Assembly: GCA_030272155.1 (NCBI GenBank)
Contig: CP126192.1
Span: 6,420,501 to 6,484,500 of the forward strand
Length of the DNA: 64,000 bases
Direction: 5' to 3'
From: Tetradesmus obliquus
Taxonomy: Eukaryota > Chlorophyta > Chlorophyceae > Sphaeropleales > Scenedesmaceae
In this document: piece after piece, positions 15,528 through 49,300 of the stretch
Layout of the letters: each line of letters begins with the position of its first letter
Position numbering within the stretch: position 1 is the stretch's first letter
The notes under the pieces: model-generated
The model's database searches: none
What the model was told of the DNA's origin: nothing
What the model saw: only the letters and a program-made list of their open reading frames with translations
Translations under genes and position numbers: made by a program

Positions 15528-15639
15528 TGCACCTGGTACAGCACCGCAACAGACAGACCAGCAACGTTCAACCCATGCATGGGCCCTGTTTGCACCTGGT
15601 ACAGCACCGCAACAGACAGACCAGCAACGTTCAACCCAT
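15528..15639 (-). repeat. Direct repeat (49 bp, period 63 bp) duplicating the exon 2 end and donor
   Basis: The 49-bp sequence at 15528-15576 recurs at 15591-15639. Each copy contains, on the minus strand, the codons for LNVAGLSVAVLYQ followed by a GTGCA donor. Splicing at either donor keeps frame because the period is 63 nt, so the downstream donor would add 21 residues. Confidence 0.9.
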
Positions 15640-15721
15640 CGATGCATATGGCGTTGTTGTTCTGTCGGATAGGGTCATCTGCAGGGTAATACTCAAACGC
15701 AGTAGGTGCATGGCTGATGCA

Positions 15722-16139
15722 TACCCTAATCACTCGAAGTGATTGATGCGCGAACGTTTCGCGAGAGCCCCTGATTTTGGGTGACTATTTACGGTGTTTC
15801 CTATGGTTTCGCGAGGAGTTGGTGGCTGGATTTCCTGGTTACTCAAAGGTTTCGCGAGGTGTTAGTGCTTTTCGCGTACAGGCAGTGCAGCTGCCTTTAA
15901 AAGCCATAGAAGAGGCAAATATATGTGCCAGGGGATTAGATGTTAGATTTATAGTGTGGGCATTTGTTGCAGTGACTCGCAGCTGCCAAAAGGCTTTGCT
16001 GAGAGAGTAATCGAACGTGACACTGTTACACAAACTTTTCGCGAGCAGCAGCAGCGAAACATTACTTCACCCATTGGTATTCGCGAATGAAGAGCTATGC
16101 TGAATTATCATTCAGCAAAAGGTTTGAGTGATTAGGGTA
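15722..16139. mobile_element. MITE-like non-autonomous DNA transposon with TA target duplication
   Basis: The 414-bp insert (15724-16137) is bounded by perfect inverted repeats, CCCTAATCACTC on the left and GAGTGATTAGGG on the right, each next to TA. Alignment to the intact paralogue shows the uninterrupted exon sequence directly on both sides, which proves insertion. One TA would restore the codons Arg-Phe-Val-Cys-Ile-Ser. The inside has no long frame, but five copies of the palindromic TTCGCGA (15758, 15808, 15851, 16038, 16080) plus one TTCGCGT (15871) lie mostly near the two ends, as expected of transposase-binding sites. The TA duplication suggests Tc1/mariner-like transposition, but the superfamily is not settled. 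Confidence 0.88.
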
Positions 16140-16520
16140 CAAAGCGTTGCGTGACTGCCACACTGGGTCCGAAGGTAGATGTTTTGTTGTCAGCAATCTC
16201 CAGCAGCCGCAGTGACGCCCCAGGCGTTGCTGCATGTCCAAACATACGAACATTAGTTCGCACCATCGTACAGTACTCGTTCCATTTGATCAAGAACTGC
16301 ATTTGCGGTGGATGGCAGCAGCAGTAGCAGCATCACGGACTGGCTTACCCGCCGTGACCCTGGGCGACAGCTCAGCATCAAACGACATCGTTCGTGATGA
16401 TACAACCACGTTACTGCATGGGTCATTTATGATTGCTTCGGTGCACGCAGTTGACAAGGCTGTTCGGTAGCACAGCAGCAGCAAGGCCCGGAACAGGGTG
16501 AAGCGTAGCTTTGAATGCAT

Positions 16521-17802
16521 GGTTGTGGAGTTCGGTACAACAGGAAAAGTTCTTCGGAACTGCTTTCAACACATGGTGCACCTGGTAGACGCGAAGCCTA
16601 CTAGAGATCGCCGCAACAAATCCTTTCACCACGGAACTTCGCTGTCATTCGCACTCGTGAACCTAGTGCAGATTCGTGCTGAACATAGTGCTAGAACACG
16701 TCGCTAGAATTGAACTTTCATTTTCATTGCCAGCAAGATGCGCCTAGGGTGGCTCAGCCAGCGACTGTACACGACGGATTTGACAGCAGTGTGTCATGTG
16801 CAAAGATTCACGTGGCTCTGTCACTGCCTGTCCAAAGTATCACCGTGTGCATCACCTGATTGTTTTAGCCGATAGCCAGCACACATCACACCCTCCCAGG
16901 CTGGTAGATGGGCAAGGCAGTTCGTCGGAAGTCTGATTAAGATTTTCCTGGCAAGCAAACAGGTTTCAACACACTGCAACAAGCAGCATACATGCCATGT
17001 CGCTGATGTACTGCACCTGCAGCACCCACAGCAATAGCAGCAGTCTGATTGCTCACACACTCTCGAAATTGACAGACTGCCTGACAAAACAAAGTTATGA
17101 TAATATCTGCTGTATACAGGGCTACGTAGCCCTGTACCAGCAGCTCTGAGCCTGTGATTTCAAAGCGCACAGATTACCGCAAGAAGCCTTTTGCCAGCCT
17201 GCAAACGGCATCACCTGCAGGCTACAGCTGTCACAAAGTTGCAGCTTAAAGCTATGCAATGACTGCTTAGCAGGCAGCAACTCGTGGCACAAATCGTGGC
17301 TGTGCTGTTCACATGTCTGTAAATGTAGGCCAGGCAATGGCCTGGAGTTGATACCTTGACCAAGCTGCAACATAGCACCTGACCTAGCCAGCGGTACTGG
17401 CCACACAACTCAACGGACGCAAAATCCACAGCACCCTGTGCACAGCGCACATTGCTGCGCCTTGCCCGTCAGCCTCCAGAAAACAGGCGATGGCACACCG
17501 CCCATGGTGTACATTAAAAGTAGCAGAAGCATGATTGCAAGCAGCGTGACACACAGCCAAAGGCACGGCTCAGGAGCAGGCTGCCAACTAGCCAGCTGAC
17601 TACAACCTGCAAGGCGCACTTGGCTCAGGCGGCAGTGTACAGCAGGGTGTTGCAGTGGCACCGTCTGCCACACGCCTTGCAGTGAGCGGGCAGCTCAGTT
17701 CTCCCCTCCAACCTCCTCTCCAACCTCCTCTGCATTCATGCGGCCGCCAGGCAGTGCCTGCAGCTGCTGCAGCAGCAGTCAGGCAGACAGCGGCGGCGAG
17801 CG
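16521..17802. other. Intergenic, no supported gene
   Basis: Upstream flank of broken copy A. Open frames are short and Cys-rich on both strands and do not join through splice sites. Confidence 0.35.
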
Positions 17803-17891
17803 TTACGAGTGCAGCAGAATTGACACAGTACAGCAAAGGTTTAGCATCGGCACAGCGGTTCTACCAGGGCCGGAGGTACCGTACAAAGCAT
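17655..17891 (+). other. Possible plus-strand exon
   Basis: A plus-strand frame that could begin after TTGCAG at 17654 runs through an Ala/Pro-rich leader-like part into ELTQYSKGLASAQRFYQGRRYR. It ends at a strong donor (CATT then GTGAGTAA, near 17892). The last 25 codons look coding. I could not find partner exons. The same DNA can be read on the minus strand as a last exon (17803-17913) of the gene ending near 18174, so only one of the two readings is likely right. Confidence 0.3.
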
Positions 17892-18173
17892 TGTGAGTAA
17901 ACGCCATTGAAAGCTACTACTGCTTGACATGACACTGCCACTGAGCACTAGCATGCACACAATACATGGTGGACTCCCAGGCTGCAAATCACACAGCGCG
18001 AGCATACTTGATGCACGGTGCGTCGCATGCAAGCAGGGTAGCAAAAATCTCTGGCAATTTCAGGCTAGCTGTGCATCTTGTGCATCTGCAGCACGATTCT
18101 GTGCCACGTGACTTTGACAAGCTTTTTAATGCTGCTCAGCCATGGCATCAATCGTCCAGGCTACAGAGCCCAC

Positions 18174-19495
18174 CTGCATGTTGCCGCCGCCCAGCTGCCC
18201 AGCGCCAGCCAGCACAGCAGCACCAGCCTGCAGCACAGCATGACAGCATGACAGCAGCAGCAGCAGCAGCAGCAGCGACGTTAGCAGCAGCCAGCAGCGG
18301 TAGCAGAGAACTTGCTTAGCTCGCAGCCAAGTGTGCTGCAAGTGATGTGCTACACAAGAGGCTGAACACCATCAAGATGTGCTTGCAGTGCTTGCAGCGC
18401 TTGTGCGCCAGCTGCAGCGCAAAGCAGGCATTCAGCGTGCTTGCACTGCGCAGGACTCACCTGCAGCTGCTGCACTGCACAGGACTCACCTGCAGCTGCT
18501 GCACGCCTGACACGCCGACGGCGACAATCTGCGCAATCGCGAGCGCCCTTGCTGCTTCTGTGCGCACCGCCTCTTCCACTGCGCGCGCCTGGGCTGCCGC
18601 TGCGCGGCTCGCCTCAGTCTGCCTCTCTGTCACGTTCTTGATGATGGCCACCAGGTCACGGTCCTGCAGCCACGTCACACATGTTGAACGGCAGTTCACA
18701 AGTCTGCAACATTTCAACACACTACACTGAATGCTTCAACATCCTGGGAACTGCGTGCCACAGGTTGCTCACCTGGCTGGCGGCCTGATGTAAAAGGGTG
18801 CGATAGAATGTGTCGCAGCTCGCTAGAGGCAGTCTCGACAGCTTACCGCACCGAATCCAGCAACACCATCTGCATTTACTCATGCGCCTACTCTACCACC
18901 AGCGCACGCAGACTCACCTTGCCCCAGCCAGGCGTCGCCCTCACATCCCTCAGCAAAGCCTGCATGTCGTCTTCACCGCTGCCTGCGGCGCCAGCTGCAG
19001 CAGCTGCTGCACTGGATCCAGCGCCTGCAGCCCCTGCTGCCGCAGCAGCAGCGCGCTGCCGCGCATCTCCCACCATCGCTGCCGCGGCGCGGCCTGCCGT
19101 GGACTTCTTTGCTGCGGGCGCTGCCCCTGCTGCTGGTACATCACCGGCACGCTTGGTGGGCGTTGCAGCAGCTGCAGCTGCTGCTGTGCTGTGGCCTGTG
19201 TTGGCGTTGCCTGCCGCTGCTGCTGCTTCATAATCCCCGTACACAGCTCTGTCAGCAGTGCGCTGCTTGGCAGCTGCTGCAGGGCCTGAGTCTGCTGGTG
19301 CTGGCGTGTCTGGCTCTGGCGGGTCTGATGTGTCAGCATTGTCACCAGTGCCGTGCTCATCCCCCTGCTCAGCTTCTGCTGCAGCTGCCTCAGCCTGCGG
19401 TGCCTCTGCTGCAGCTGCTGCAGCTGCTGCAGCTGCTGCAGCAGCGTTGTCCCGCCTGTTGGCGTGCCACTCCTAGACAGTCGGAAGGTCAAGAC

Positions 19496-19526
<31 letters not shown>

Positions 19527-20858
19527 CGGCGGCAGCAGTTAGCACAATGAGGTTTGGCAGCATCTCGAACACAGCGGCTGGGCAGGTGGTTTGAGTTGTT
19601 CACTGGGGCAACAGGCATCAAGGCTGGCACATTGAGGGTTTGGCAGTGTCTGTCATGTCTCAAGGAGAGCGGACGGCCTGGCCCAGTGGGCACGTAATAT
19701 GATATGTTCCCTGGGGAAAGGCATCTAGTCTAGCACCAGTGTCAGAGTTGGAGGGTATCGCTGTATGTCTGGCCACGAGTCTAGTCATATGACAACAACA
19801 CCATGCATGGTGTCATCAACTTGCGGGACGGCCTCAGCTGATCCTCTGCCGCAGCTGATGCTGGATCGAGGCCCTCACAGGTGGCGAATGCCGCTGGCAG
19901 ATGTGATCCAAATGCTATGCAGCTACACACAAGTTTGCAGCTGCAAAAGAACTTGCAGCGGTCTCACCTGCACCAACTCTCGCAGTGGGGGCAGCAGGTC
20001 CTCCCCGCCCACGCCCCTCCAGACCACATTCTGAGAGCCATTGCGCTGCAGCCAATACCTGCAGGCTCAGACGGGCGAGGGAGATAGAGAGATAGACAGG
20101 GGTTACACGGTGTGTTACTGCGGCATACGCCACCACAGACACCTGGTCAAATAGGAAGCTGCAAGCAGCAGCACAAGGGCAGCAGCAGCAGGGCTGGCTT
20201 TATATGTGCAAGTTGAAGTGTGTGCTGGCGGCAGTGGCTGCTGCGTCAATACACCTTGAAGGATTTGAGAGTGTGGTAAACTATGCGACGGTGCAGCATT
20301 CAGTGCTCAGCAGAGTGCCACAGTGCAGCTTGCGTATCATCGCAACGGCAGGCACCCCCGATGCTGCTGCCACCAGGACACGCAACAACTAGTAACAAGT
20401 GGCATTCAGTAGCCCCATACTTGTATCTGAAGGGTTGGGCAGTGTAGGCGAAGTCAGGGCGGCCCTTCCTAGCCTCGTCTGTCCACAGGTGCAGCCGCAT
20501 GTCTGTCACGCAGCGCGCAATGAATTGCTGCTGCTCCTGCTCGTTGCGCAGGCCATGCTCGTTGAGCTTGGACACCAGATGCAGGTAGGGGCTGTACTTT
20601 GTCTGGCTGTACTTTTGTGCTCAAACCACAGATCTCTTTGCAAGCGATTACACGTGGCCCTTCAAGCTAGTTGACTTGTACATGCCAAGATTGCCGTGCT
20701 GCCTTTCGGGCTGCACATCCAAGCTGAGTTACGTCGTGCTGTGCAGCAGATCTTCTGCTGCTGAACCAGATCTTCTGCTGCTGCACCAGATCTGCGCACC
20801 TGGTGTAGCTCCCATCATCCAGTTCGGTTCCATGGATTCCCAACTCCCCGTTCTCCAT
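18174..20858 (-). CDS. Unknown protein with poly-Ala region (3' end uncertain)
   Basis: Six exons join with consistent phase: 20800-20858, 20421-20606, 19968-20058, 18918-19472, 18490-18663 and 18174-18227 (373 codons). The start ATG at 20858 opens MENGELGIHGTELDDGSYT. Residues 1-112 form a non-repetitive, probably folded domain with KLNEHGLRNEQEQQQF, LHLWTDEARKGRPDFAY and NGSQNVVWRGVGGEDLL. Then follow about 150 residues dominated by Ala, with acidic and basic patches, ending in DDMQALLRDVRATPGWGK. Next comes an Ala/Arg/Glu-rich segment likely to be coiled coil (VTERQTEASRAAAAQARAVE). I do not recognise the family. A possible last exon at 17803-17913 fits the phase and ends in a stop, but competes with a plus-strand reading. 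The gene is divergent from the plus-strand gene at 21255. Confidence 0.6.
18452..18504 (-). repeat. 24-bp direct repeat duplicating a splice donor
   Basis: The 24-bp stretch beginning AGGACTCACCTGCAGCTGCT occurs at 18452-18475 and 18481-18504. On the minus strand each copy gives CAGCTGCAG followed by GTGAGTCCT, two consecutive donors 29 nt apart. Only the upstream donor (exon end 18490) keeps the reading frame. Confidence 0.85.
19395..19530. repeat. CAG/CTG-rich low-complexity tract
   Basis: Near-continuous GCTGCTGCA and CAGCAGCAG runs. The left part codes for poly-Ala on the minus strand in the unknown gene, and the part after 19473 lies in its intron. Confidence 0.8.
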
Positions 20859-21254
20859 GTTCAACAAAGCAAGCGCGCTGCGTGGTTGATCTGAGGATGC
20901 TGCGCAACAGCAGCGCTCGCCCAGTGAACACCTGGCTTGACGTGTGGAAAATCTGCCACAGCAGTGTACGGCCTGTGACGTATCTAGCAGCACAACGAGC
21001 AAGACGAAGACACCACTAACCTCTGAAAGCAGTGCTAGCGGTGTCCGAGGAGCGTCGCAAAGATTCCACCGACGACGTTGGACCCGAAGATCACTGGAAT
21101 CCCAGCACTACTGGCGTAATTTGTGGGCGAGCACGGACCCCGACCACAGTTGATAGGTCTTCGTCAATGTTTCTTCATCGTTTGAATAGCACCAGCAGCG
21201 TCTGCACGTGGGCCTGATTGCTACACCGCTGCAGCAGTCCGTGCTGTGCTGCAG

Positions 21255-22828
21255 CAGCCTGTCGCTCGCGCATTCGCCCGGAGCGCTGACCAAGTAGGTG
21301 ATCGCTTTGTGGTGCCAGATCTCATGCAACGCAAGCACCTGTTCTTTGTGCTGATATGCTGCTGTTGCACCATGGCAGAGGCCTGGTTCATGTCAAGTGT
21401 ATGCCCAGCATCATGCTGTGCAAAGCATTTGTGCAGAGTGGGCAAACACAATAGCAACTTGCCTGAAACCCCTACATAACGAAGCCAAAGCAACGTGCAG
21501 CATGTGACAGCTACAGCAGGGGATTCCTGCGCTTGCATTGCTGATAAGCCTCCATGTGCCCTGTGCTGCAGCAGCACTGCTGCCAGAGCACTGCCGCTGC
21601 CATTGCGCTCCCCTGCTGCTTTTCCCCAGACTGTAATCTTCAACCTTCTGTACTGCTGATTGTCGACTGCAGGTGCCCTCAACACAGTACACGGCTTCAC
21701 TGGCTGCAATGTTTGCTTCAATGAGCAGCGAGCGCCAGGCTACCATCAAGGCCCTGGCAGTGGTTGAGGCCGAGGAGAGGGGAGTACTGAAGCCGGGAAT
21801 ACCAGACAGCAACATAGAGCTGCATGAAGTGATACTCTCTGTCAAGGTAGGTTAGCGCACCTCAGCGGCAGGTGCAGAATTTATGCAGTATCTGAATGCG
21901 GCAGCCATGATTTTGGCTTAGCCTGTTTGGCAGCGTTGAATTCTTTAGGATGACTTGGTGCCTGGTTAGAATACAAAATGCTTATGCAGCAACATGTGTC
22001 ACATGCTGCCAGTGGCCCTGCCACTAACACACCTGTGATAGTGGGTTTGCTTTGAACAGCAGCAACCAAGTCGCCGCGACATGGCGGCCATATATTTGCC
22101 GGTGCCACCAATGCTGCTTCTCCTGCTGCTGGTGGTTGTGCTGCTTGTATGTCTGCTTGAATTTCCGCTTCTGCTCTGCTGCTGCTGCTCCTCCTCTGCT
22201 GCTGCTGCTGCTTCTGCTGTGGCTGCTGCATCGTCTTTCACTGCTGCTGTTGTTGTCACAATTGATGTGTGGTGGCTGCTACTGCCGCGGATGCAGGACC
22301 GCGGAGGTAGACGGACCATCTCCATTGGTGCAGGTGAGGTTGGCCTGCATTGGCAGCTGGCACTGGCAGCAGCACTGCTGGCAGCAGCACTGCTGACACC
22401 AATCCAGCACTCAAAGCATGTTGCTTCTGTGCTCTGCGCCCCAACCAGGCTCTCATGCTCAACAGGTGTCCTGACGCGCAGCACTGGCAAACAGCACAGT
22501 GAAGATACTGCTGCACTTGTTCAGCGTCAACTGTTGTGATGTACAGCGCTGCTATGACACCTGCAGAACAACCAAATGGGGTTGACAGAAGGAGGCTGTG
22601 CTGGCGCTTATTGCCAATAAACCCACACCAGTGGTGCTGATTGCCAGCGTGCTCGCAGCAACACCGGTGCTTTGCAGGCTTGAGTGCTTGTTCTTGGTTT
22701 CAAGGCATGCAGCGTGTTGGGCAGGCGATCAGTGTCATCAGCATTGTAGCGTCAATGCAGCTGCCCCTGCCACCCACCTTCTGCTTCTCACTTGCCACTT
22801 GCTGGCTGGTTGCCGACTGGGCTGCTCG

Positions 22829-22880
<52 letters not shown>

Positions 22881-23565
22881 TGTTGCAGGCTGCATCATTG
22901 AAGAAGAGCCCACCACCAGCGCTGCTGCTGCCGCTGCTGGCCCACATACACCACCAACACCTGGATCACCGCCACCAGCATCAGTAGCAGCACCACCATC
23001 AGCAGCAGGAGCAGCAGCAGCAGCAACAGCAGCGCCAGCAGCAGCAGCAGACGCACCAGCAGAGCAGCAGCAGCAGGACATGGACTGCCCAGCAGCAGGA
23101 GACGTGCCATCGCAGCCCTACATCATTGACGACCCCGCAGAGACAGAAGAGGTTGAGCAAGCAGCGACGCTGCCTGCAGATGTCGGGTCAAGTGAGCTGG
23201 GCAAGCGCAAGCCTGCTGAGACTGGCGCACGGCCAAAAATCAGCATCAAGGCCAGCAGCAGCAGCTACGCCTGCACCATCAGGGCCTACGATATACGCCG
23301 CACGCCCGAGGACAGATCCAGCAAGCGCCGCTCGCGTGATGCCAGCAGACAGGAGAAGCCTTGGCAGCTATTCCTGGACACGCCTGAGACAGCGGCAGCA
23401 GACCGCACGCACAAGTATCTGTGCACGATCAGTGAGGAGGGGCTGCAGCAGCTGCAGGCCAGCTTCAGCCAGCAGCGCGCCGAGGACTGGGGCGATGTGC
23501 AGCGACGCGTCGAGCCGTTTGTGACTGACAGCGTGAGGCAGCGCCTGGCAGGGATGAAGGCGTAG
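21255..23565 (+). CDS. Unknown protein with Pro/Ala-rich linker (5' end not found)
   Basis: Four exons join in frame: 21255-21293, 21673-21846, 22297-22333 and 22889-23565 (stop TAG). The first part reads through SMSSERQATIKALAVVEAEE and a conserved-looking PGIPDSNIELHEVILSVK into GRRTISIGAG. A Pro/Ala linker follows. The C-terminal 110 residues are well mixed and probably folded: KISIKASSSSYACTIRAY, KPWQLFLDTPETAA, THKYLCTISEEGLQQLQASF and a final VRQRLAGMKA. A basic patch (SSKRRSR) could act in nuclear import. I recognise no family. The start codon was not found; upstream sequence to about 21000 may hold a first exon. The acceptor of the last exon is preceded by about 16 CTG units. Confidence 0.6.
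22831..22879 (+). repeat. (CTG)16 run directly before a splice acceptor
   Basis: An unbroken CTG run ends eight bases before the CAG acceptor at 22886-22888. It stands where a pyrimidine tract would normally be. Confidence 0.9.
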
Positions 23566-23609
23566 GGTGTGAACCTGGGGCGCTGCCTCGCACATGTCAT
23601 GTGCAGCAG

Positions 23610-23610
<1 letters not shown>

Positions 23611-23657
<47 letters not shown>
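23611..23657 (+). repeat. (GCT)15 run in the 3' UTR
   Basis: A pure trinucleotide run starting 46 bp after the stop codon of the preceding gene. Confidence 0.9.
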
Positions 23658-25477
23658 ATGCACTGCGCATGCTGCATTTGCTCTGGCTGTGATTGTAAAT
23701 TCAGAGGTCCTGGCACCGGCGGCGAGTCACAATGTTTACTGTGATTGCCGTGCCAGTGTTGCGATCGGCGTGTGAAGCTTGGAGCACCCCCTGCAGCCAC
23801 TGCTGTGCAGTAAGTTCAATATTTATTCCTGCGCCAGGTGACTAGCGCCTGGGTGCGTGTATCGGTGTGTATGCACTTATGTATACTGCATCTAGGTGCC
23901 GCATGTAGCGTCGCAGCGTTGCACCTTGGTGTGCCGACTATGTATGTGCATCAGGTTGCAGATAAATTGCTGCCAGCGCCGGCTGCATAGTGGCGGCGTG
24001 CTGATGTGGGCTGCTGCTCATCCAACACACCCCAAGATGGATGGCTGCAGCAGCGCGGCGCGGCCACAAGCAGTAGGGGAATCGGCCAGGCGTAGCTGTA
24101 AAACGACAGTTTTCAACTAGCTGTGCATGATTGTTGACAGAGGCCTGCAGCAGGTTCAAGCCAGCTTGTGCTAGCAGGGGCTGCACTTCTAGGCAGATGT
24201 GCAGTGCTGCATGAGGCTTTGGTGTCTGACTTTGTGCTGCAGTGCGTGACAGGGATGGCCTGATATGCCGCCACTGCGATTGCGCGTTGCTGCAGCTTGT
24301 TATGTTAGTGCTGCAGCACATGTGTAACATCTGCTGCATGTGACGTGCTGCTCCTGCAAGCAGCTGTTGCACGTGCTGTGGGGACTGCAACGCTGCTGAG
24401 TGATCAACTAGTGACAGTGTTTTGCATGGCGCAGAGATGCAACTACTAGTATCTGTGAACGGCTATGTGATCGCATCATATGCTCGTGGAAAGACAGCGG
24501 CCGACGGCCGCAAGAAACCCCTACCAGTTCAAACCAGCCTACCTGCAACTCCAGATCGCACCATATTCTGTCACTTCACAAGCTGTCAAAAGCCTGACGT
24601 TACTTGGCCTTCCCAGGTGCACGAATTGACGCTGATGCTTGCCTTGCGCCCTGAAGCACGTGCAAAGTGTACTGCCGGCACTTGAGAGGCACAGGGGGTT
24701 ACAAAAAAAGTGGTTGCATGCTGGGCAGGACAATTCGGCAGTGTACAGCACAATGCGGCTCTCCCACGCAAGACACAACTGCTGCACCAGTTGTCTTAAC
24801 AGTGACTCATTAAACCGCGTTCCAATATCAACAGCTGACAGCAGATGAGAGTACAACTGGCAAACAAGTAAGTACACGAGCCACAATGGACAAAACAGCT
24901 GAACACAGTTGCAGGCAGACCTGGCAGCACACAGCACGCCACTGCGGTAGCTGCAAGCCGCCTTGCAGCATATCCATATGGCTCGTGCAGCAGATGCCGT
25001 GCTTGCTTCAGCTCTCCAACAAACAAGTGTGTCACACTCCATATGATACAGTCAACCAGCAAATGGCAAGACACTTCTCGCTGCTTCACAGAAAGCACTC
25101 CTCGCTGCTTCTCAGGCATACTTAACAACCGAATGGATGCAGCATATTGCCTTTTTGCAGGCACTCTGAATGATTCCTGCTGTTATACACCATCCACTCA
25201 AGCAGTAACAGCGTGACTACACAAACAGTATACAAAGATACCACAAACCACAGGCACGTGTGGCATAGCACAGCAAACATGATCTCCTGCCAGGCATCTT
25301 TGTCTCAAAGGCTGCGCCTGTGCATCAGCAGCATCGTGTATGCAGTAAGCCGCAGGCGCAAGCACAAGGATCACAGGCACCTGCGGCGTATCGTGGCACA
25401 TCGCGCTTCCTTGCCAGGCGCTTCTGCTGCTATACTGCACTGTAATCGTGGCTTACCACATGAGCTGGCGCATGCAC
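23658..25477. other. Intergenic, no supported gene
   Basis: Between two convergent genes. A plus-strand frame at 24422-24685 (87 aa) starts with ATG, but it has no neighbour exon, no family resemblance and an overlapping minus-strand frame of similar length, so I do not call it. Confidence 0.35.
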
Positions 25478-36980: not shown

Positions 36981-39900
36981 GACCACAAATCAGATGAGCA
37001 GCAGCGCAGCTTTGGCGCTGGGTGAGTGGCAGCAGCAGCAGCAGCAGCAGCAAGCAAGCAGGCAGGCAGTTGCTGCCTCTGCTTTAGCACATGCACTCAG
37101 GGGTCATCGATACCTGTACAGGTCACATACAGTGGTGATTGCTCCGGCTGGTTCAACGCGCTGCTGTCCGGCTGCCACTTGTCGTCACATTTGCTGGGCT
37201 GCTGCAACTGATTGAGACGTGCATGGCTGTTGTTGCTTTTGCAGGCTAGCAGGCAAAGACACACAGCTGCAGGTACTACTGTGCCTGGGCCTTGTTGCCC
37301 TTCAGCAACCTCCAGGACATCTTTACACGTGCTCGCAGCATGCTGCAGCAAACAAGAGCAGGCAGCCGAGCAGCAGCAGCCAGTTGCCTCAGCTGTGCAG
37401 GGCTGCAGCAGCGTGATCTCTTTTGATTCACACTGCAGCAATGATTTCTCCCGGCTGCGAGACTCTGCTTGCACAGCACACGCCAGCGGATCCTTGAAGT
37501 GTTCTTAAGTTGGTCTGTTGCATCACTGTAACAAACTGCTGCGTGTTGACTGCGCAGGGTGACAAGTGGCGCAGGGCGTTCCTGCAAGTGGCTGAGGCAC
37601 TTGGGGTGCATGTGCAGCAAGGCAGCGAGCTGCAGCCAAATGCAGTGCTGCAAGCAGCGGCAAGCCTCCAGCAGTCACAGCATCGGCTGCAGGTGCGGCA
37701 AGCTGCCTTGTGATGTGTGAGCTGTGCATGCTGTGGGTATTACAGACTGTAGCAGCACAGTCTGCGTTGCTGCATGTTTGTGCGGCACAAGGCAGTCCAC
37801 AGGCGTTGGCAAGCCTAAAGGATGAGTAGACGGCAGCGGTTGACAGGTCTGCCGCAGGCCGCTGTACCCCCAACTCACAATGTGCCACTATATTCTGCTT
37901 TGTCTCGCTGCGTGGCTGGTAACACTTACTGGCAGGACTGTGTGACCCGGTCTTTGGGACTCGTCGTTGACTGTGTTCGTATGTTTGACCGTTTCCTGCA
38001 AGCGGCTGCAGCAGCAGGAGGCAGCGCTGCAGGTGCAGGTGGCGCACCTGACACTGCAGAACATGGAGCTGCGCAGGGAGCTGGGCAGCGGCTGGAGCGC
38101 AGCAGAGCCAAACGTGATGCAGGTGAGCACCAAAAAGCAGCTGCAGCAGCAGCGACGCAACTCACTATCGCATCACTTGCTGCGCTGCAGTATGGCTGCT
38201 CAGCCGTTGATCACTAGGAGCGGCAACAGCGCCCAGGCATGTGCTTAGTAGCAGGCAGCGGCTGCCACATCAGTGCAGGAACATAGCAAACACACCATGA
38301 AGCAAACAGTATGACAGTATAACAATGTGTGTTATTGATCTGTTCTTGCAGGTGCGGCAGCTGGTGCTGGACCCTGCCATCCAGCAGGAGTTTGGGCGGC
38401 TGCGGCGGCAGCTGGAGGAGCAGCGCAGCGCCCTCGCACAGCTCAAGGAGCAGAACGACAGCCTCACCTTCACCGCGGTGAGCTTTCTGTGTAGTCTGTT
38501 TGTTGTGGGTTCGTTGTGCCAAATGGGAGCAGGACGATCGTCTCGCCTCCATTGCGACGGTGATGCTGTGTGCTGTGATGGTTTGTGGATTTGTTGCTTT
38601 GCACAGAGCAGGACGACAACCTTGCCTTCACTGCGGTGAGGATGCTGTGTGTAGTGTTGCTTTGTGGGGTTGTTGCCTGTGACAGAGCACACCGGCAGTT
38701 TCACCTTTGTATGCCGCTGGCTGCGCTGTCTTGCAGGTGTTGTTTGTTGTATTGCGGGTGTGCTGTGTGGTCATCAAAGACGCCAGCGCACAGGGTGCGG
38801 CGTGTTTGCGGCAAGCTTTGCATGCCTGGCTTGCTGCTGCTGCAGGAGTCCAAGATGGGCCGTGCGTTGATCTCCAAAACAAAGCTGCTGGCTGACGAGA
38901 ACCAGGAGATGGCGGCACAGCTGCGTGAGGGAACAGCAGCAGCACAGGTGCGGCGCAGCACATCAGGCAGAACAATCGGGCACAGCGTACAGGTCATGCC
39001 GCCGAGGCCTATTTGGCAGGCCCTGCTGCCCCCAGCAGCACTGGTGCTCATGGCGTGGCAGCGTCTTTGCTTGCCAGCATATGAATCTAAAAGCCATATC
39101 GATCCGTCCTTCTACATAATCGGCAGTGAGCTGCTGAGGCCTTTCTGGCCTGCCCTGCTGCCCCCAGCAGCATTGCTGGTCTGGCAAGGCAGGATGCTTG
39201 CTGACTTCAATTGGCCAGCACATGAGCGGCAGCGTGCACTCCTGGCAAGACGTTCCATACGTGCCACGCGCACAAGATGCCCAAGTCGTCAGCAAGCTTG
39301 CTGCATCCGCTCCTGCGTGCTGCATTGTACAACATTGACATCACTGGTTTCACTTGAAAGCTGAACAGGAAGCACTGCTGGCGCTGGAGCGGCACTATGC
39401 TTCTGCCATGGGTCTGGTTTCACACCTAGTTTCAAGTCCTTTGTGTTGTTCCAACTGATGATGTGTTGTGGGGTACACTGCTGGTGCTGGAGCGGCACCA
39501 TGCTTCTGCCAGGGGTCTGGTTACAGACCTACTTCAGAGTCCCTCGTGGGTTGAGCAGGCTTGTGTTGTTCCGAATGATGTTGTGCTGCAGGGTGCGCTG
39601 CTGGCGCTGGAGTGCCACCACGCGTCTGCCCATAGGGGTCTGGTTTCAGACCTAGTTTCAGATCCTCTGTGTTGTTTCGGTTGGTGCTGTACAACGTGTT
39701 GCAGGGTGCGCTGCTGGCGCTGGAGCGCCACCATGCTGCTGAGCTACGCAAGGCTCTATCCGAGGTCAGGGACCACTGCTGCTTCCTGGAGGAGGAAAAT
39801 GAGGAGCTGAGCATGGTAGCCTTCCTGAATGCTCGCCAGATCGCAGAGCTGCAGGCTGCTGCTGCTGCAACTGGGGGCGGCGGCGGCCCTACGGGTGCTG

Positions 39901-40392
39901 CTGATAGGGATCGGGCCAGGGAGCGAGGGGAGCGGGAGCGAGGGGAGCGGGAGCGAGCCAGGAGCAGGAGCCGCAGCAGGTGGGTGGGCGGTGTGTCTGA
40001 CGGCTGGTGTTTTGTGTCAGGGACTGAAGTGAAGTCGTCAGGGAGTGTTGTAAATGGCAGCCAGAGGTGATTGTAGGTGAATCGGCTGGCCCGCTTGCAA
40101 GCAGCTCCCGCAGATATCTTAGTCTGCAGTGAAGATTGCCTGCTGCAAGATGGTTTGGGTCTTTTCCTGGTGCCGGTCATGTTGTGAGCTTTGCCCTGCT
40201 GTGGCTTCCTGCAGGGACAGGGACAGGGAGAAGCACCAATACTCAATGAGCAGCCGCGGGGGTTCTGGGGGTGGCAGGGGCTACCGCCATTTTGGCGACA
40301 GGGGCCGCACTGCTAGTGGCCTTGGCAGCAGGGGCAGAGGGCGCGGCAGGGATGACAGCAGCCGCTACGTTGGACACAAACGACCGCGCTGA
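36981..40392 (+). CDS. FIP37: WTAP/FIP37 homologue, m6A methyltransferase complex subunit (5' end not found)
   Basis: Adaptor of the nuclear mRNA N6-adenosine methylation complex, which holds the METTL3/METTL14-type enzymes. Exons: 36981-37021, 37245-37272, 37558-37692, about 38003-38122, 38352-38477, 38846-38947, 39705-39979 and 40215-40392 (334 codons plus stop, in phase). The family core is unmistakable: LVLDPAIQQEFGRLRRQLEE, then NDSLTFTAESKMGRALISK, then LLADENQEMAAQLREG. The middle is long coiled coil (LQQQEAALQVQVAHL; HHAAELRKALSEVRDH). The C-terminus adds a stretch of Arg/Glu/Asp and Arg-Ser repeats and an RGG-like tail (GGGRGYRHFGDRGR, SRGRGRGRDD), suggesting RNA contact and nuclear-speckle targeting. 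The start exon is missing from my model. Two introns are expanded by tandem copies of their exon junctions. Confidence 0.88.
38447..38730 (+). repeat. Four tandem copies of a FIP37 exon end plus donor, period about 80 bp
   Basis: The end of exon 38352-38477 (GAGCAG, then the Asn/Asp-Asp-x-Leu-Thr codons, then GCGGTGAG) is followed in the intron by related copies with GAGCAG at 38527 and 38606 and GAGCAC at 38685. The third copy still has an intact GCGGTGAG donor near 38628-38637. Copies diverge with distance. Confidence 0.75.
39004..39190 (+). repeat. Two-copy direct repeat inside a FIP37 intron, period 132 bp
   Basis: The block GAGGCCTATTTGGCAGGCCC (39004) with the following CTGCTGCCCCCAGCAGCA recurs as a diverged copy beginning GAGGCCTTT at 39136. 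Confidence 0.75.
39372..39770 (+). repeat. Four tandem copies of the start of a FIP37 exon, period 103-120 bp
   Basis: The start of exon 39705-39979 (codons for ALLALERHHA) is present in earlier copies aligned at 39375, 39478 and 39598. Each is followed by the same intron-like text (GTCTGGTTTCA or close variants). The third copy is preceded by an intact CAG acceptor (CTGCAGGGTGCG near 39587). Only the fourth continues into the real exon. Confidence 0.85.
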
Positions 40393-40941
40393 AGACATGT
40401 GCACGTTGCGGCAGCCGTGCTTACTGTGGTTGAGCATGGCTGTGTGTCCGTTGTTTCCGTGGGTAGGGTGACAGCAGCCGCCTGTGCCTGGCCTTGGTGT
40501 CGTGTGCTCACGCGAATGTTCCAAGGTGTGTACGTAATTTGTGCATAGAATGGTTGTGCGTTGGCATGTTGGCTGCATGCCCGAAGTTAAAGGGATACCC
40601 TGTATGCCACGTGGCACATCTGCACACAAGCACTCGTGTGATGCGCCAAGGATGCATGTTACATTAACAAGCATGATGTCGACGGGTATCTGGACACGGT
40701 CTCTGTAAACAGACTTAAGAACACAGAAATGGGGCTGAGGCCAGTGCTCGAGCTCCACGCGACTAAACGGCGATCATGGAAGCGCGGATGATGACGCACT
40801 TGAAGTAACCCACCGCAATTATAGCACGGCCATGACCATGACTCGACCGCTCGATCGGACTGTGGACACCATGCCGCACAGCAGCAGGCAGCATCAGCTG
40901 CTGCTGATGCAGCATGACAGGGGCAATGCTCTGTTTCATAT

Positions 40942-41910
40942 GTGCATCACCTGCCTCTCTACTTGTCAAGGCAGTTCTCTGCGGAGCAGCAGCACGAACG
41001 CAACACCATCCTGGAACTCATGCTGGTGGAAGTAGCTGCGCTGCTGCTGCAAGCCTGCAGCACCCTCAAAGGATCAGCTGCAGCAGCCTTCTACATCCGG
41101 CACCGAACAAGCTGCATCCTCCTGCTCCAAAGCATTGAGTTTGCAGCCAACTTGGCATACATTCCACGCGCTTTTGCGCTGAATGTGGCAATTCAACTGG
41201 GCAATGGCAAGTTCCACAGTGTGTTCTGGAACTCCCTCGTGTCGGGTGAGCAGAGCTCTGATCCTACATGCAGCTGGGATTATATTCAAGCGTTGGTGTT
41301 GTGCCGAGCAAACTTTGCAACAGATGCTTATCTCCGCAGAGTTAGGGCTTATTCTGCACAATGTTCACCTGCCGGGATGCATCAGGTGCATGAGGTGCAC
41401 ACACACAACATGGCCAGAAGTATCCAGGCATGCCATTTTCATCAGTCGCCACTCTTCCGCTGCTCTGCCAAGATGAAATTGCCTTGCGCTGAGTCAGCTG
41501 CCTGCCGCGTGTTGTGCCTGCTCCAACACCCGCCGCCAGGCTGCGCCTCATTTAACGTGGCGCTGCATTGCCTGTCAATGCGGCTACCGGTACACATAGC
41601 AGCGCCCTTCGCAGCAGCAAAGGCCGCAGCTGCGCTGGCGCTGCTACCACAGCACGTCGCGTACCTCAGCATGCCTCAGATCAACGGCATTACATTGGAC
41701 GTCAAGCGGGCAGTGGACACAGCGTACAACACTGCGCTGGGCCTGTTAGCAGGGACAGACGGCTGTGGTGCTGCGCTGCCTGCGGTGCAGCCATGCCCGC
41801 AGCTGGCATTTATGCTGTGGTTTCATCTGTGCCTCGCACGCGATCTGCCGCTGTACTGCCTAGCAGTCATGGAATTTAACAGCAGGCAGAGTGCCGGCAG
41901 CAGCAGCAGG

Positions 41911-41949
<39 letters not shown>

Positions 41950-43204
41950 CAACCAACTGGCGTGCCTCCACTGCGGCTCAGCAGCATGGACCTTCAACTG
42001 CAGCAGCTTGCAGCAAGCATGGCTGCTGGTAATACGCCTGAAAGCAGCAGCAGCGCCGCAGCAGCGGCAGGGATGCCAGCATCACCCACACCACCACCAG
42101 CAACAGGCCCCGCTGACAACGCCAGCACTTGGCTGCTGCACCTGCAGCAGCAGCAGCAGCTTCAGCAGCAGCAGGCCTTCAGTTGTACGGGGCTGCTGGG
42201 CAGCGCATGGTGTGGTGTGCGTCACATGCTGGCTCTGTTCCTTGCCAGCTGCTTTGTGTGGGCTATGGTGGATGTCGGGCTGGCGGCGGCTGTGCCACAG
42301 TATGGTAAGCTGGCTGCTGCTACCTGATCGCTGCGCTGCAGTGCAGGCAACGTAGTGTTACGTGTAGGTATGTGATGAGTGCTGTTGCTTGGGGGGAGGG
42401 ACACATGTTAGGCATTCTAGCACTGCATGCTTGGGGTGGGATGGTTCGTGAGTATTGGGTGGCTGTTTTGGGGTCATAGATTGCTGCTGCGCGCTGCTGC
42501 GCTGTAGCAACTGTGTGGTTTAGCTGCTATGTTAATCCCTTGTCTCGTAAGTGACAACTGCTGTACCAGGAGGGCAATGCGTTTCAGTTGTCAGCCTGTT
42601 TGTGCGCAACCAGCGCACCTGCAGCGTGCAAATGCGCGTTTTGATGTTTGATGAGATCGTCTACACACTGCCATTGTATAAACTGCACCGAGGGGTTTGG
42701 TTGGAGTGGACGCGCAGTACACAGTGAGGGCCGCATGGTTACATAGAGTCCTCCATGTTGCGCAGCAGGCTTTGCTGCGGCTGTGGCACGCAGCAGATCG
42801 GTTTTGTTGTGTGAGAAGGTGCAGGGCCGTGTGCCATGGCTCGCACACAAGTGCAGAGCTGCACCATATTTAGGCTGTGCCGTTGGCTGTTCACTGCAGC
42901 AGGGACTGTCTGACGTGTAGTTGCGACAGACTGCTTGTCAAGCGTGGCACATTCGCGTGATTGGCTAGATGGTTGGGTTGCCTTGTGATGACATGTTGGT
43001 GGTGTGGAGCTCGTGGCAACGTGATATCTTCGCATCGTGTTATGTTTGTCACAGGTGGCTTGGGGACAACATCATCTGTTGAACAGCTATCTGCTGCTTG
43101 CAGCAAACGGCAGCACAACTGTACTAACTGAAATAGCACCACTGCGAAGCGCAGACTGCACTCACACGTTTGGCGACTTTGGCACGGATGTTGCAGGGTC
43201 GTAG
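40942..43204 (+). CDS. Unknown protein, three exons
   Basis: Proposed exons: 40942-41245 (from an ATG; a splice acceptor at 40974 is an alternative left edge), 41600-42304 and 43104-43204 (stop TAG 43202-43204). The frame is also open across the first intron (354 nt, a multiple of three), but the retained stretch is rich in Cys and His and looks non-coding, and GTGAGC/ATAG borders fit splicing. The protein has Leu/Ala-rich, probably helical segments (ILELMLVEVAALLLQACS; RTSCILLLQSIEFAANLAYI), a poly-Ala tract, a Gln-rich tract and a hydrophobic LALFLASCFVWAMVDVGLA near the C-terminus that may be a membrane segment. I recognise no family. The last exon is supported only by phase and a clean frame. 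Confidence 0.5.
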
Positions 43205-44958
43205 GGGTTGAGATGATCTGGCTGCATGTTGTGTTATAACGCCCCAGAGGTTGGAGTGATATGGGTGCATGCTTTGGTCAGCACCTGACAAGAGTCGCAA
43301 TGATACCTAGCATGCGATCATGGCTGCAATTAGCAGCATATGTGGCTGTTGAGGTTAGCAGGTGAACAGAAAAGCAAATAGGTCGCATCACATCAGAACG
43401 GTGCTGCTCTTCTGGTTAGGTTCATGCGTTTGAGGTTTCCAGAGGCATGCTAGGCAGGCAGCATCCTGCCAGCGGCACAATGTGCCTGCATGCTTTTTTC
43501 ATCACGGCTTGTACTCAACCGCCTTGTTGCGCTGTCTATCATACACTGAGCGCCATTCATCGTTGCACTGACGATTACTACATGGTTTGCAGCTACGACA
43601 GCTGCCCTTTGTCTACAGCGTACTTACATATATACCTATGTGCAATCGTCTACATGAGATGCATGCACTGCATGCATGTGTAATGCTGCAAGGCATGTGT
43701 GCATACACTTAACAAGTTGGGCATTGCTGCTGCTACCCCAGGCACAGGGTGTTGGTGTGCGAAGTCAGCAGCGCGCAGCGGTGTGGTGTTACTAATATCA
43801 CCTTGTAGTACAAGCATGCACCGTATGCGCACCAGCAGGTGTCAGACTCGTTCTGGGTTAACTCAACTGCCTTTCAGCGAAATTACAGTATATGGGGGGT
43901 TGTTGTGTTGTCATGCGTGAGCTAGCTGTAGCCGCTGCAGCTGCTACTAATACTTCTGGTGTAGAGCTTGTAATCCTGCACTACATGCTGACAGAGGGAC
44001 TGTGTCTTGGTGCTGTAAGCAGTCCAGCGGTGTGCTGAACGAGCAACGTGCCACAGCAGCACGGTGCTGGCCTGGCCTTGGGTGCCTGCCAGTTAAAAAA
44101 CATTGTGCATGTTCTCGCGATGTTGCACATTGCGCATGTACACTGCAACGGGGCGCGGCGCTGGCGGCGTTGATGCTGCGGCTTGATTGAAATTTGGTAT
44201 GGTGATGACCATGATGATGATGGTTGTGCAGGTGCTGCTGCTAGTACCAGAATGGCACACAGGGTGGGTTGGTTGTTTTTTGATGATGATGACAGGGGTA
44301 GGTTGCTACGTCGCACAGACTGTCCATCTTTACAGCTAGCTGAGTCCTCGGGAGCTCTACTAGGGCCTAAGTAAGGGCGGTCTTTGTGACGGAGTAAAGC
44401 GAGAGAGCATCGTGTATGGCTTGATGGGTAACATGATGATGAGAGCATCGTGTCTGCCATATGTTACGGTAACACATTGTACACAAAACTTGCCTTGAAG
44501 AGTGCAGGCAGCCACTGCAGCAGCAGCAGGCAGTAATAGCCGTTGGGTAATGAGACCACAGCTGCAGTCACACAAAAAAATGCTGCACAGTGTGGGCAGC
44601 CAATGGGTTAGTGCACCTGCGCATGCCGCCGGCGCCTCACGATAGGGGTCACCCAAGACATCTGGCAGCCTCAAGACAGCAGTGGCAATTGCAAGCATGC
44701 ATCACGGGATCCTCGCCCTCACAAGATGCACTTCCATACGGCTGCTGCTGCAGGCTGGCTGCCATGGCTGCCGTGCACCCGCAGCAAGGCCAGCACGTCC
44801 CGGCGATAATCATCAACGCCACTGGCACTGACTAGCAAGCCGTTGCACAAGCTTGCGCTTAAGCGCACGACATGAGCAGACTGCCGGACGGCTTGCATGC
44901 ACCTTGATGCACTCCCTCTGCCAATAAGTAACGGAGGTCTCAGCTGCTGCTGCAGCTG
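43205..44958. other. Intergenic region between convergent genes
   Basis: Holds the 3' ends of the unknown plus-strand gene and the cap methyltransferase gene. Two short minus-strand frames (VLRLPDVLGDPYREAP near 44600-44690 and VDDYRRDVLALLRVHG near 44755-44830) look mildly coding and may be exon remnants, but they do not join. A GATGATGATG run lies near 44210. Confidence 0.4.
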
Positions 44959-45181
44959 CTACTCCACATATCTCGGCGCCATCGCCAGCAGCTGTTCCAG
45001 CAGCTCCCCAGGCAGCTGAGACACCTCCACAGCAGCAGCAGACTTGTACCCCAACGGGTCAGGCGCCACGCCACGCATCAGCGGGCCTCCTGCCTTGCCG
45101 CCTGCACCAGCAGCAGCCTTGCCGCCTGCTGCGCGCTGCTGCTGCTGTAGTGCTGGCCGCTTTGCTTCCTGCTGCTCGTCC

Positions 45182-45222
<41 letters not shown>

Positions 45223-45371
45223 TGGTTCGCCAGCATCCCCACCAGCATCATCTGCTGCAGCTGACCCTCCATCGGATGACTGCCGAGCGCGCTTGCTGCC
45301 AGCAGCCCGGCCGCCCCTGCTGCCCCTGCCCCTGCCACGCGTAGGTGACGCCACATCAGCACCTGCCTCAC

Positions 45372-45417
<46 letters not shown>

Positions 45418-46286
45418 TCTGCCGCGGCCCCTGCCACGCCCTCTGCCGCCGCCTGCAGCATCAGCCGGCACCGCATCTGCTGCTGCTGCTGCTGCTGCTG
45501 CCGAGCCTGCGGTAGCATCTGCCGCTGCTGCTGGCTGTGCAGGTGGAGGCGGCCCTGGGTATGCAGCAGCATTTGGCGGCGGCATGCCCCGCTGCTGCTG
45601 CTGCTGCTCAGGTGGCTGCTGCTGCCTACTGACCACGCCACCACCTCCGCCGTAGTGCTGCTGCTGCTGCTGCAGCGGTGGCGGCTGCGGTGGTGGTAGC
45701 CCCTGCCCTGCTGCTGCCGCCGCCAGCTGCTGCTGCTGCTGCAGCTGCGCATGGTAGTTAAGCTCGTCATAGTAGCTGCTAATCCACGCGCCGTTTGGCA
45801 GCTGGGGGTACACCTCACGCCCGAATGCGTCATATTGAACAGGCCCGCATTGTGTAGGCAGCGGCGGCGGCTGAATAACAAAGCGGCCCTTTGCTGCGCG
45901 GTGGTGCAGGTGGGCCGGGTAGTGCTTTACGTTGAGGAAGGCCGAGGGCATCTCCTGTGGCGGCAGGTGGCGTGCTGCGTAGGGCAGCACCCAGTCCGCA
46001 TTCTGCAGGAAAGCAGGAGGCAAGCAGGCAGGCATGGGAAACAGTCAATGGCGGGCAGGAGTTCCGCGACGAACTGTGTCTGATGCTAGCCACTGATATT
46101 ACAGCATCAATGCACACAGGGGGTTCAAGCCTGTAAAACAAGCAAAACCACGCAGCGCTGCAGTCAAGCAACGAGATCGTGTTGTGGGAATTTGAAGTGA
46201 TGTGAACCAGGTGACATTTACTGCCAGACTAAAGAGTACATACCCGCTTGCGATTCCCGCCCCCTCGCCACGCCACCGCCCCATCT

Positions 46287-46322
<36 letters not shown>

Positions 46323-49300
46323 AGGCCGCCACCTGCAAGCCGCTGCTCACGCGGTGGCGACTGCCGCTGCTGCTGCTGCTGGTTGCGCTGCTGCTGGCTG
46401 TTTGGGCCACGCCCCTTGTCTGGCGGCGGCAGCGGCGGCGCATGCACCTCCTGCGCGCTGTCAACCTTCTGCAGCACGAAGGCCATGTACAGCTTGGAGG
46501 CCTGCACATGCCATGTATGGTTACACATGCGTCAGTTGCCTTTGCTTGCTTGCTTTGTTTGTTGCAGCACAAGTTTTGGACACTATCATTGGTTCAAGCA
46601 AAGCTGATTGGCAGTCCTGTTGGTTACTGTGTGCCTCTGGCCGTGACACCAGCAGCAGATACACGCCACTGCAGACGGCACAGCGCAGCCTCCAGCGCTG
46701 CACATGCAATAGCAGCAGGCCGCACTTGTCACTCCCAAGCTCTGCCATGCATGCTGCTGCAGGTAAAGGTTTGCTCACCGTTGCGAGGCTGGGGTCTGCA
46801 TCAGCTGGGTACTGCGGGTGGAAGTGCTTCATGGGCTTGCCTGCATCGCCCTGCAACAGCAACACAGGCAACACCTCGAAAATTACTGTTTCAAAGGCAT
46901 TGAAGCACCAGGCGCCACATTTTCTAATATCAAATACCTTCACCACCACCGTGAAGCGAGGTGGTCATTGCCACCATCATGCGCAAGGTGCTGTTCTGAC
47001 ATGTATAACTGAACATTCTGTGCTTGCAGGGCGGCTCTGTGGCGCACATCCTGCGCTACAAGTACCCTGAAGGGCTGTCTGAGGTGGTCATTGCCACCAT
47101 CATGCGCAAGGTGCTGGAGGCGCTCGCATACGTGCACAAGCAGGGGGACATCCACAGGTGAGGCGGCAGAGCAGTTTGTTTTTGTAGGGTGTGCAAGCGT
47201 CAGTCAGGCATGCATTTGGTTGTCCGACTGTGGGTTACCTGCTGTTTTGGGTGGAGAACACCATCAAATGCAACACCTATGTACTTGCCTCCCCCTCTGG
47301 TGATGTTTCTGCTGCCTGTTTGGCCTGTGCTGCTGCTGCAGCCTACACGGTACAGTACTCTAGCAGGGTCAGACCAAGCAGATGACGCAACATGTTGGGA
47401 TGGACGTCCCTGGGTAAGCATGCAGCCTCTTTGGCCACTTTTTAAATGGAAAACAGCGCAACAGTGCACACAAAATAGCAGTTCATGCCTGCTCACCTCC
47501 TCAAACAGCGCGTCAAGGGCTGGGTCTTCAAAGTTGACCACCTGCGAGCACAGCACAGCACGCAGCGCAACGGATTGTGATGCCAGCACAGTGCAGCTTC
47601 GCACGTTGGCTGCTAGTTTTGCTGCCGCCTGACTGGGTGCAGGCTGCGCGTGTCCAGCAGCTAACGCCGGCACTCTTCCAACACCGCGCTGTGCTCACAT
47701 CAGAACCTGTGTGCCCAGCTTAGCCGCTGCTGCTTGCAGGACACCTATCAACAACATGCTGTACTGTTACCTGCAAAACTTGCTGCCGCACACTCCTGCA
47801 GGGTCGAGGCGGTACCCCTTCCACTCACCGGGTGCAGGCCGTACTTCTTGGCCACTGACAGCAGCACCTTTTCAAACACCAGGTACTCGCGGCTGCCCTC
47901 GCTGAAGCCCTCGTGGCCCGCAACCACTGTATCCAGGATCTCCATGATGTACGGCGAGCCAAACGGCGCCTCCTTGCCCTGCAGGATTTTGTCGACAAAG
48001 TGCAAACAAAGTGCTTGGCAGAATGTGAGGAGGGCTTTGATATTGATAAGGAACCCTGTGCGACGTGTCAGACTACTGGAGGTGTTCATCAGATGCAGCA
48101 GCCACCACAGAGCAGCTTGATCCTGCAAGCTGGCACGCACGCAGGCTTGCTGGGAAGCTCTGCTGCGGGTGAGACAGCGGGGAGCATGCAGTAAATGGGA
48201 GAGCTGCTGCGGTGCATATGCCAACAGTGCAGCATGTTTGCACTGTGCACGCTGGAGATGCCAGGAGGAATGCGTTGCTGCCTGCTCTGCCCCTGCAGCT
48301 GAACATGAGGCAGCGCCACAGGCAGACCCATTGCCGCGTAATGCACAGCAGCCGCACCAAATACTGCAATGCCACTGCACACAACCACTGGGCTGCTGCC
48401 GTACCTGGCAATCCTGCTTGAGCATGAGGGGCCCCGCAGACACCACCTCACCGTGCTACCACGGCAACTAAATCCATTCAGACTCACCTGCTGCTCTTGC
48501 TTGAGCATGAGGTTACCCGCAGACACCCACCCCACCGTGCTGCCACCGCATTCAACCCTGTTCAACCTCACAGTTCACCTGCCACGCATGCTTGAGCTTA
48601 AGGTGGCGCATGGACACCACCCCACCGCGCTGCCACCGCAATCAACCCTTTTCACAGCTCACCTGCCACTCCTGCTTGAGCATGAGGTGGCCCATGGACA
48701 CCTGCCCCGCTGCCTTCACCAGGTGTGCCTTCACACGCTTGCCGTCAGGCACAGTGCCGAAAAAGTAGCCGCCTGCAAAGTGCAACCAGGAAGCAGCACA
48801 CAGGGCAGCATGCTCGTCATCTGTAATATTACGGCATTCATGCCGTCACGCATTCTTCACAGGACTGCTCACCTGTGAGTACAGCATGCAGCAGCACATA
48901 CGGAGCAGCACGCCAGCAGCGCACTTACACAATATTGCTGGCAATGGTCAAGCAGCATGTAGACGTGCAGTGCATAGCTCCGACAACGCTGCTGCAGGCG
49001 CCGCACGCCATGACAAAGCAGCTGTTACACTGCACCAGACCATACCAGCGCAACTACTTGTGCGCAAAACAGTTGCATGCGTGCGGTGACCAGCCGGCCA
49101 GCAGGCACCAAGCGCACAGCTGCAGCTCACCCGGCTTGAGGTTGGCTGCCACTGTCTGCATCAGCATCATGAGCGTGGCCTCCTGCTCGAAGAAGTAGTG
49201 CAGCGCAAACATGCAGGTGGCTGCATCGTACTGCCGCTCCTCCTGCCACAGCTGCAGCCCCAGCTGGTCTGTCTGCTCGAACTGCGCCTGCATGCTGCAG

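Follow-up and report, generated by a model that had tools for sequence, protein, structure and literature searches.

Tandem duplications across predicted exon–intron borders in the green alga Tetradesmus obliquus

The DNA considered here (the window) is a stretch of 64,000 nucleotides from the green alga Tetradesmus obliquus (contig CP126192.1:6420501-6484500, G+C 55.7%, in a genome of 104.66 Mb and 17 contigs), in which five short tandem arrays lie at predicted exon–intron borders. A first-pass annotation had listed these arrays and ascribed them to a recurrent process that copies splice junctions, lengthens introns and would offer competing splice sites. We analyzed them within a sample of 314 kb, made of the window and 25 further 10-kb stretches that together represent every one of the 17 contigs (labels L001-L003 and L029-L033 lie outside it). 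In this sample, a preference of short tandem repeats for predicted junctions is supported.

Five tandem arrays and the genes that carry them

All five arrays are present as head-to-tail copies, four of them at junctions of homology-supported genes, and the first description is borne out in its unit sizes (29 to ~120 bp), its copy numbers (two to four) and the presence of arrays at donors as well as at acceptors. Two arrays belong to a plus-strand gene matching the WTAP/FIP37 family (Pfam, E 3e-23). At its donor 38477/38478, about four copies with an offset of 79-84 bp occupy positions 38447-38769, the first copy being the end of the exon 38352-38477, while at the acceptor 39704/39705 four copies with offsets of 103-120 bp extend over 39366-39743, the last one being the start of the exon 39705-39990 (both exons given by the gene model and Pfam). 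On the minus strand, about four copies with an offset of 83-91 bp (48403-48714) lie at the donor of an exon of an mRNA cap G-N7 methyltransferase gene (Pfam, E 2e-17), the right-hand copy being the end of this exon, which lies upstream of the array at 48663-48772 with its left end at 48663 (gene model and Pfam).

The fourth array (case 1; 15528-15644, minus strand) consists of two copies, 54 bp long, 96% identical and offset by 63 bp, at the donor of a choloylglycine-hydrolase-like gene (PF02275, E 7e-18). Here the exon may end at 15596 or at 15533 and, because the 63-bp step is open and divisible by three, the gene model reads through the repeat. The claim that the reading frame is preserved would hold for use of the outer copy. 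The fifth array, the weakest case, is a CAG-rich 29-bp unit in 2.4 copies (18433-18504, minus strand) at the predicted donor of the exon 18490-18663; it is without homology support and was not recovered in the masked scans, so that it enters none of the counts below.

Regarding case 1, two paralogous minus-strand genes stand side by side (8611-11405 and 13072-16229), the second matching choloylglycine hydrolases, and this neighbouring pair is useful to date changes. At the corresponding donor, the paralogue has a single copy, to which the right-hand one (exon end 15596) corresponds, so that the duplication is derived. Separate from the junction arrays, an element of 420 bp bounded by terminal inverted repeats (taccctaatcactc ... 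gagtgattagggta) interrupts the coding part of the case-1 gene at 15721-16140. No such interruption occurs in the paralogue, and the gene model removes the element by splicing, which makes it a candidate for an intron gained from a transposon-like element. It has few copies in the genome, with four other partial or full matches, two of them at 89%.

For the WTAP acceptor, a comparison with relatives rests on P0057, a metagenome open reading frame (ORF) of a relative, as the six other relatives' ORFs end short of the region. P0057 likewise has a copy of its exon start, lying 126 nt (42 residues) farther upstream, the units in the window measuring 103-120 bp. Judging from this copy, the duplication has probably recurred at one WTAP acceptor in the relative, the alternative being a shared origin followed by change. 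The WTAP intron of the acceptor array also holds another 52-bp repeat with a spacing of 132 bp (38998-39225), away from the junction.

Abundance, position and decay of junction copies

Gene structures were predicted with a two-strand ab initio gene finder, self-trained on the 314-kb sample with simple repeats masked and GT donors only (a first self-trained model, which had drifted onto CAG repeats, was discarded). The learned splice signals are donors with CAG before and GTG(A/C)G after the border, or similar, and TGCAG acceptors. They define 955 predicted junctions, one per 329 bp, predicted exons below 25 bp being dropped from the counts. Microsatellites (13% of bases) were masked before the repeat scans. 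In the main array scan, arrays were dropped if they scored below 26 or matched over less than half of their offset, the limit being a score of 24 when exons were masked. For long arrays, class counts were used rather than column identities, which global realignment makes unreliable. The exon–intron satellites of L019 and L023 were left out of the centring, offset-divisibility and donor/acceptor counts and kept in the array classes, exon-edge copies, codon and dinucleotide counts, decay and exon-masked scan.

Direct repeats with a score of at least 18 are abundant: 362 occur in 264 kb, whereas three shuffled sets gave an average of 0.0. Among the 397 repeat pairs at most 1 kb apart, the two fullest bins of offset are 100-119 bp (53 pairs) and 120-139 bp (33 pairs), and a smaller rise at 220-259 bp (22 and 21 pairs of 397) fits a third copy. 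The array scan gave 97 arrays at all unit sizes, 61 of which have units of 60-170 bp. Among these 61, 55 contain a predicted junction, two are confined to introns, four are intergenic and none is exon-only, against 18.7, 16.8, 16.9 and 8.6, respectively, expected under random placement of the units (binomial p for the junction class 4e-22, which ignores clustering). Equal frequencies in introns, exons and intergenic DNA, which would have spoken against a junction-copying process, are hence not what this sample displays. Circular shifts within loci (1000 rounds) gave a mean of 21.2 and a maximum of 33 junction arrays when a single unit was placed, and 39.3 and 51 with the whole span, an over-strict null, so that the observed 55 exceeds every shifted-position control. 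The excess is also seen for the 35 two-copy arrays (30 at junctions; by circular shift 12.7 for the unit and 20.2, maximum 28, for the span), with exons of at least 80 bp only (50 of 61 against 12.6 expected) and with the window excluded (51 of 55).

A copy facing a conserved exon stays recognizable longer, a bias for which the exon-masked scan is a test. With exons masked, 46 arrays were found (5 in one shuffled set), 30 of which include or abut an exon, with eight intron-only and eight intergenic, the null shares being 35% exon-adjoining, 35% intron-only and 30% intergenic (p 2.7e-5). The preserved-exon bias therefore accounts for part of the junction excess, not for all of it.

The same phenomenon is apparent from the introns themselves. 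At a score of at least 18, an adjoining exon edge is found copied in 72 of the 465 predicted introns, the copy representing the end of the upstream exon in 51 introns and the start of the downstream exon in 38 (both in 17), whereas neither kind of copy occurred in the controls (for each case, one intron of matching length from another locus). At a score of 14, the numbers are 69 and 58 against 7 and 12. In line with the lengthening first proposed, the median intron measures 357 bp with an exon-edge copy and 219 bp without (p 9e-7). By contrast, the idea that this 35-kb stretch is striking for its number of cases was not borne out, as copies occur in 5 of 87 introns of the window versus 67 of 378 elsewhere. 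What is supported of the first-pass annotation is recurrent junction copying with longer introns and a junction excess, and what finds no support is the special status of the stretch.

Without L019 and L023, 30 rows concern donors and 21 acceptors; the 51 offsets fall at 97-125 bp (22), at 126-172 bp (16), below (3) or above (10) these ranges. Offsets divisible by three (10 of 50) are below one third. The exon share of the unit averages 0.47 (sd 0.17, for 40 of the 68 rows) and exceeds 0.72 in three rows, against 12.1 under a uniform null, a fraction of 0.0015 of 2000 nulls being equally narrow. It is suggestive of a junction centred within the unit, rows from one intron not being independent.

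The two sides of the copies have diverged differently. Over 68 rows, the exon side has 10.2% mismatches and 1.9% gaps per column and the intron side 19.0% and 5.7%, a ratio roughly that of a free copy compared with a constrained exon, as against two free copies. The intron-side match has a median of 50 bp at 81%, the null having a mean of 8 and a 95th percentile of 45 columns. Mismatches by codon position (89 copies) amount to 6.8, 8.4 and 16.3%, the third position being about twice the others, a pattern near the free-copy expectation. Splice dinucleotides are retained: donor copies keep the G of GT in 33 of 39 cases and the T in 31 of 39, and acceptor copies keep the A of AG in 25 of 28 and the G in 26 of 28. 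This retention is close to the identity of the adjacent exon flanks (0.84 and 0.87), so that the duplicate sites are available as potential, though not necessarily competing, splice sites.

Homologues lend support to gene models outside the window, namely a Snu114/U5-116-kDa protein (L005; best chain 8xi2_C, labelled elongation factor Tu in the PDB, the next chains being SNU114), a plant-type glutamate-cysteine ligase (L010), an XPF nuclease domain (L028), an OPR/old-yellow-enzyme protein (L016) and MsrA (L025). All five models have extra residues compared with their homologue, including a second copy of the exon-edge peptide, which the solved homologues hold once. Alignments are weaker for the FKBP part of L025 and a ubiquitin hydrolase in L024.

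Some long arrays are satellite-like: L023:589-2629 and L010:3229-4626, in which exon-like and intron-like pieces alternate (units of ~106-120 and 151 bp), and L021:116-5768 and L009:1-888 (279/345 and 191 bp).

Possible origin of the copies

Directly visible in the sequence are the copies, their location at predicted junctions, the peak of spacing and the decay pattern. We propose that tandem duplications, mostly of 100-140 bp and produced by break repair, keep arising in the genes of this genome, that they are found preferentially across exon–intron borders and that the extra copy lengthens the intron and decays nearly freely, an account for and against which we consider the scales to be about level. 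Most likely, a staggered break, or two nearby nicks on opposite strands, would occur around a border and be filled in and rejoined, giving a head-to-tail duplicate of the intervening strip. With the outer splice site and the complete exon still beside the coding sequence, the extra copy would land in the intron, which would gain one unit with the coding sequence unaltered. The extra copy would then decay under little or no constraint, and growth to three or four copies could take place through slippage or unequal exchange. The head-to-tail and local arrangement, the border inside the unit and the preferred length fit staggered-break fill-in, a source of small tandem duplications established in mammalian cells (PMC8355091). 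The break-repair step, the targeting to borders and the use of the outer site are what we infer from these features. Only tentatively, as a possibility falling short of an expectation, would we go further and consider a mutational process aimed at junctions, with breaks centred on borders and units of ~100-140 bp, as a main engine of intron growth, affecting about 1 in 6-7 predicted introns and still active.

Several observations weigh against the proposed duplication process. The junctions rest on ab initio gene models, the loci are strongly heterogeneous for exon-edge copies (chi2 72, df 25), ranging from 8/16, 7/18 and 7/19 introns in the richest (L015, L016 and L010) to 0/81 over L006, L007, L008, L012, L017, L021 and L022, and the centring fails to reach significance (KS p 0.12) when a smaller set, of 21 arrays, is taken. 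Past the donor, ungapped identity is 0.79 at +3 to +6 and then 0.50 and 0.40 deeper in the intron; before the acceptor it drops to 0.56 and 0.46. Moreover, intron-side similarity is at most 13 bp in 17 of the 68 copies, five of which have an exon part 89-100% identical, whereas a simple duplication should retain the intron part. Finally, masking exons cuts the junction excess from about threefold to about twofold.

This last reduction is what one would expect if duplications of ~100-140 bp arose at random, the exonic ones being purged and those at junctions tolerated, because the extra copy is spliced out, and recognizable longer beside a conserved exon. This purely selective filter, unlikely in our view and still a serious contender, would also explain the absence of exon-only arrays where 8.6 were expected and, with junctions as dense as ~1/330 bp, a unit of such size often meets one. 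However, it predicts that intron-only and intergenic arrays should be common, and these are the classes found depleted, both in the main scan (two and four of 61) and with exons masked (8/46 each, against 35% and 30% expected), and nothing in such a model centres the junction in the unit. The copies with little intron-side similarity might instead be taken to favour copying of exon edges linked to splicing or templated by RNA, ending at or near the splice site, rather than plain DNA duplication, since in L009, L010, L013, L015 and L028 an exon edge of 31-65 bp, kept at 89-100%, is accompanied by only 0-8 bp of intron. Such a mechanism is improbable, as over all 68 rows the intron side does match, in genomic order and head to tail.

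A retention of the copies for function, as alternative splice sites or exons, could be argued from the mostly intact GT and AG, from the excess of third-position mismatches and from the gene model often taking a copy as an exon. It is nevertheless quite improbable, as almost the same codon pattern is expected when a free copy is compared with a constrained exon, the intron side diverges about twice as much as the exon side, fewer than a third of the offsets are divisible by three and the exon-edge peptide is single in solved homologues. Assembly errors or wrong gene models have to be considered as well, given that the models are self-trained and ab initio and that multi-copy arrays can draw false exons (L010, L019, L023). 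Yet the copies are not identical to one another and contain indels, matches to WTAP, methyltransferase, glutamate-cysteine ligase, Snu114, XPF, OPR and MsrA proteins back coding sequence at the arrays, and the junction count barely shifts with long exons only, making an artefact very improbable.

Relation to known duplications and introns

Duplications that cross an intron–exon boundary or create introns have been published as single or few cases (PMC4974935, PMC2891723). In the potato RdRp gene, as described in PMC4974935, a tandem genomic duplication spans an intron–exon boundary and takes the splice signals along, as observed here for the arrays holding a predicted junction, with homology support in the WTAP and methyltransferase genes. 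The potato case concerns one gene, which gained a new intron with the inserted exon sequence in the mRNA, while in T. obliquus many genes are concerned and the extra copy appears to lie inside a lengthened intron. The Rogers model, in which an intron is gained by tandem duplication of an exon piece containing AGGT (PMC4974935; PMC2891723 for Drosophila), likewise involves a tandem duplication that changes the exon–intron structure and supplies splice sites. In that model, the duplicated piece lies within an exon and gives rise to an intron of its own length, whereas most units here extend into true intron and the introns exceed the unit: intron columns are duplicated and intron length is greater than the offset in nearly all 68 rows, being equal in one (L019).

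Fill-in by CST/Pol alpha-primase at staggered breaks gives, like the arrays, local head-to-tail copies of a short strip. In PMC8355091, these duplications are described as usually <100 bp, with no mention of a link to splice junctions. Except for the 17 copies lacking an intron-side match, the copies described here are adjacent and head to tail, with no dispersed source. Introners, the intron-creating transposable elements (PMC9860276), also alter intron content on a large scale within a lineage, but they are dispersed families, while the present copies are local. A dispersed intron family is not supported as the source, as 403 of the 465 introns are without a match in another sampled locus (E 1e-4). 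For the 62 introns with such a match, many of the best 40 listed are CAG-type repeats.

Among the open-licence PMC papers listed by the searches, none was a genome-scale report of junction-straddling duplications at such density, size and place in an alga. What is new is their abundance, their preferred size and the probable repetition of the event, in a relative, at one WTAP acceptor. Intron growth and the origin of spare splice sites have mostly been argued from single cases, and with ~15% of the sampled introns holding a datable exon-edge copy, this genome would offer many natural experiments on the choice between near-identical splice sites, the decay of decoys and the gathering of DNA breaks at junctions. 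The mean intron of T. obliquus has been reported as 462 bp versus 230-302 bp in four other algae (PMC5966456, Table 1), a figure on which junction copies may bear.

Two further repeats of the window deserve mention. A 247-bp unit in 1.9 copies at 89% (2686-3168) lies in a weak gene model and yet contributes one row to the exon-edge count. An identical 36-bp pair, 123 bp apart (46958-46993 and 47081-47116, plus strand), is found opposite the methyltransferase gene, in a frame that appears protein-kinase-like by eye.

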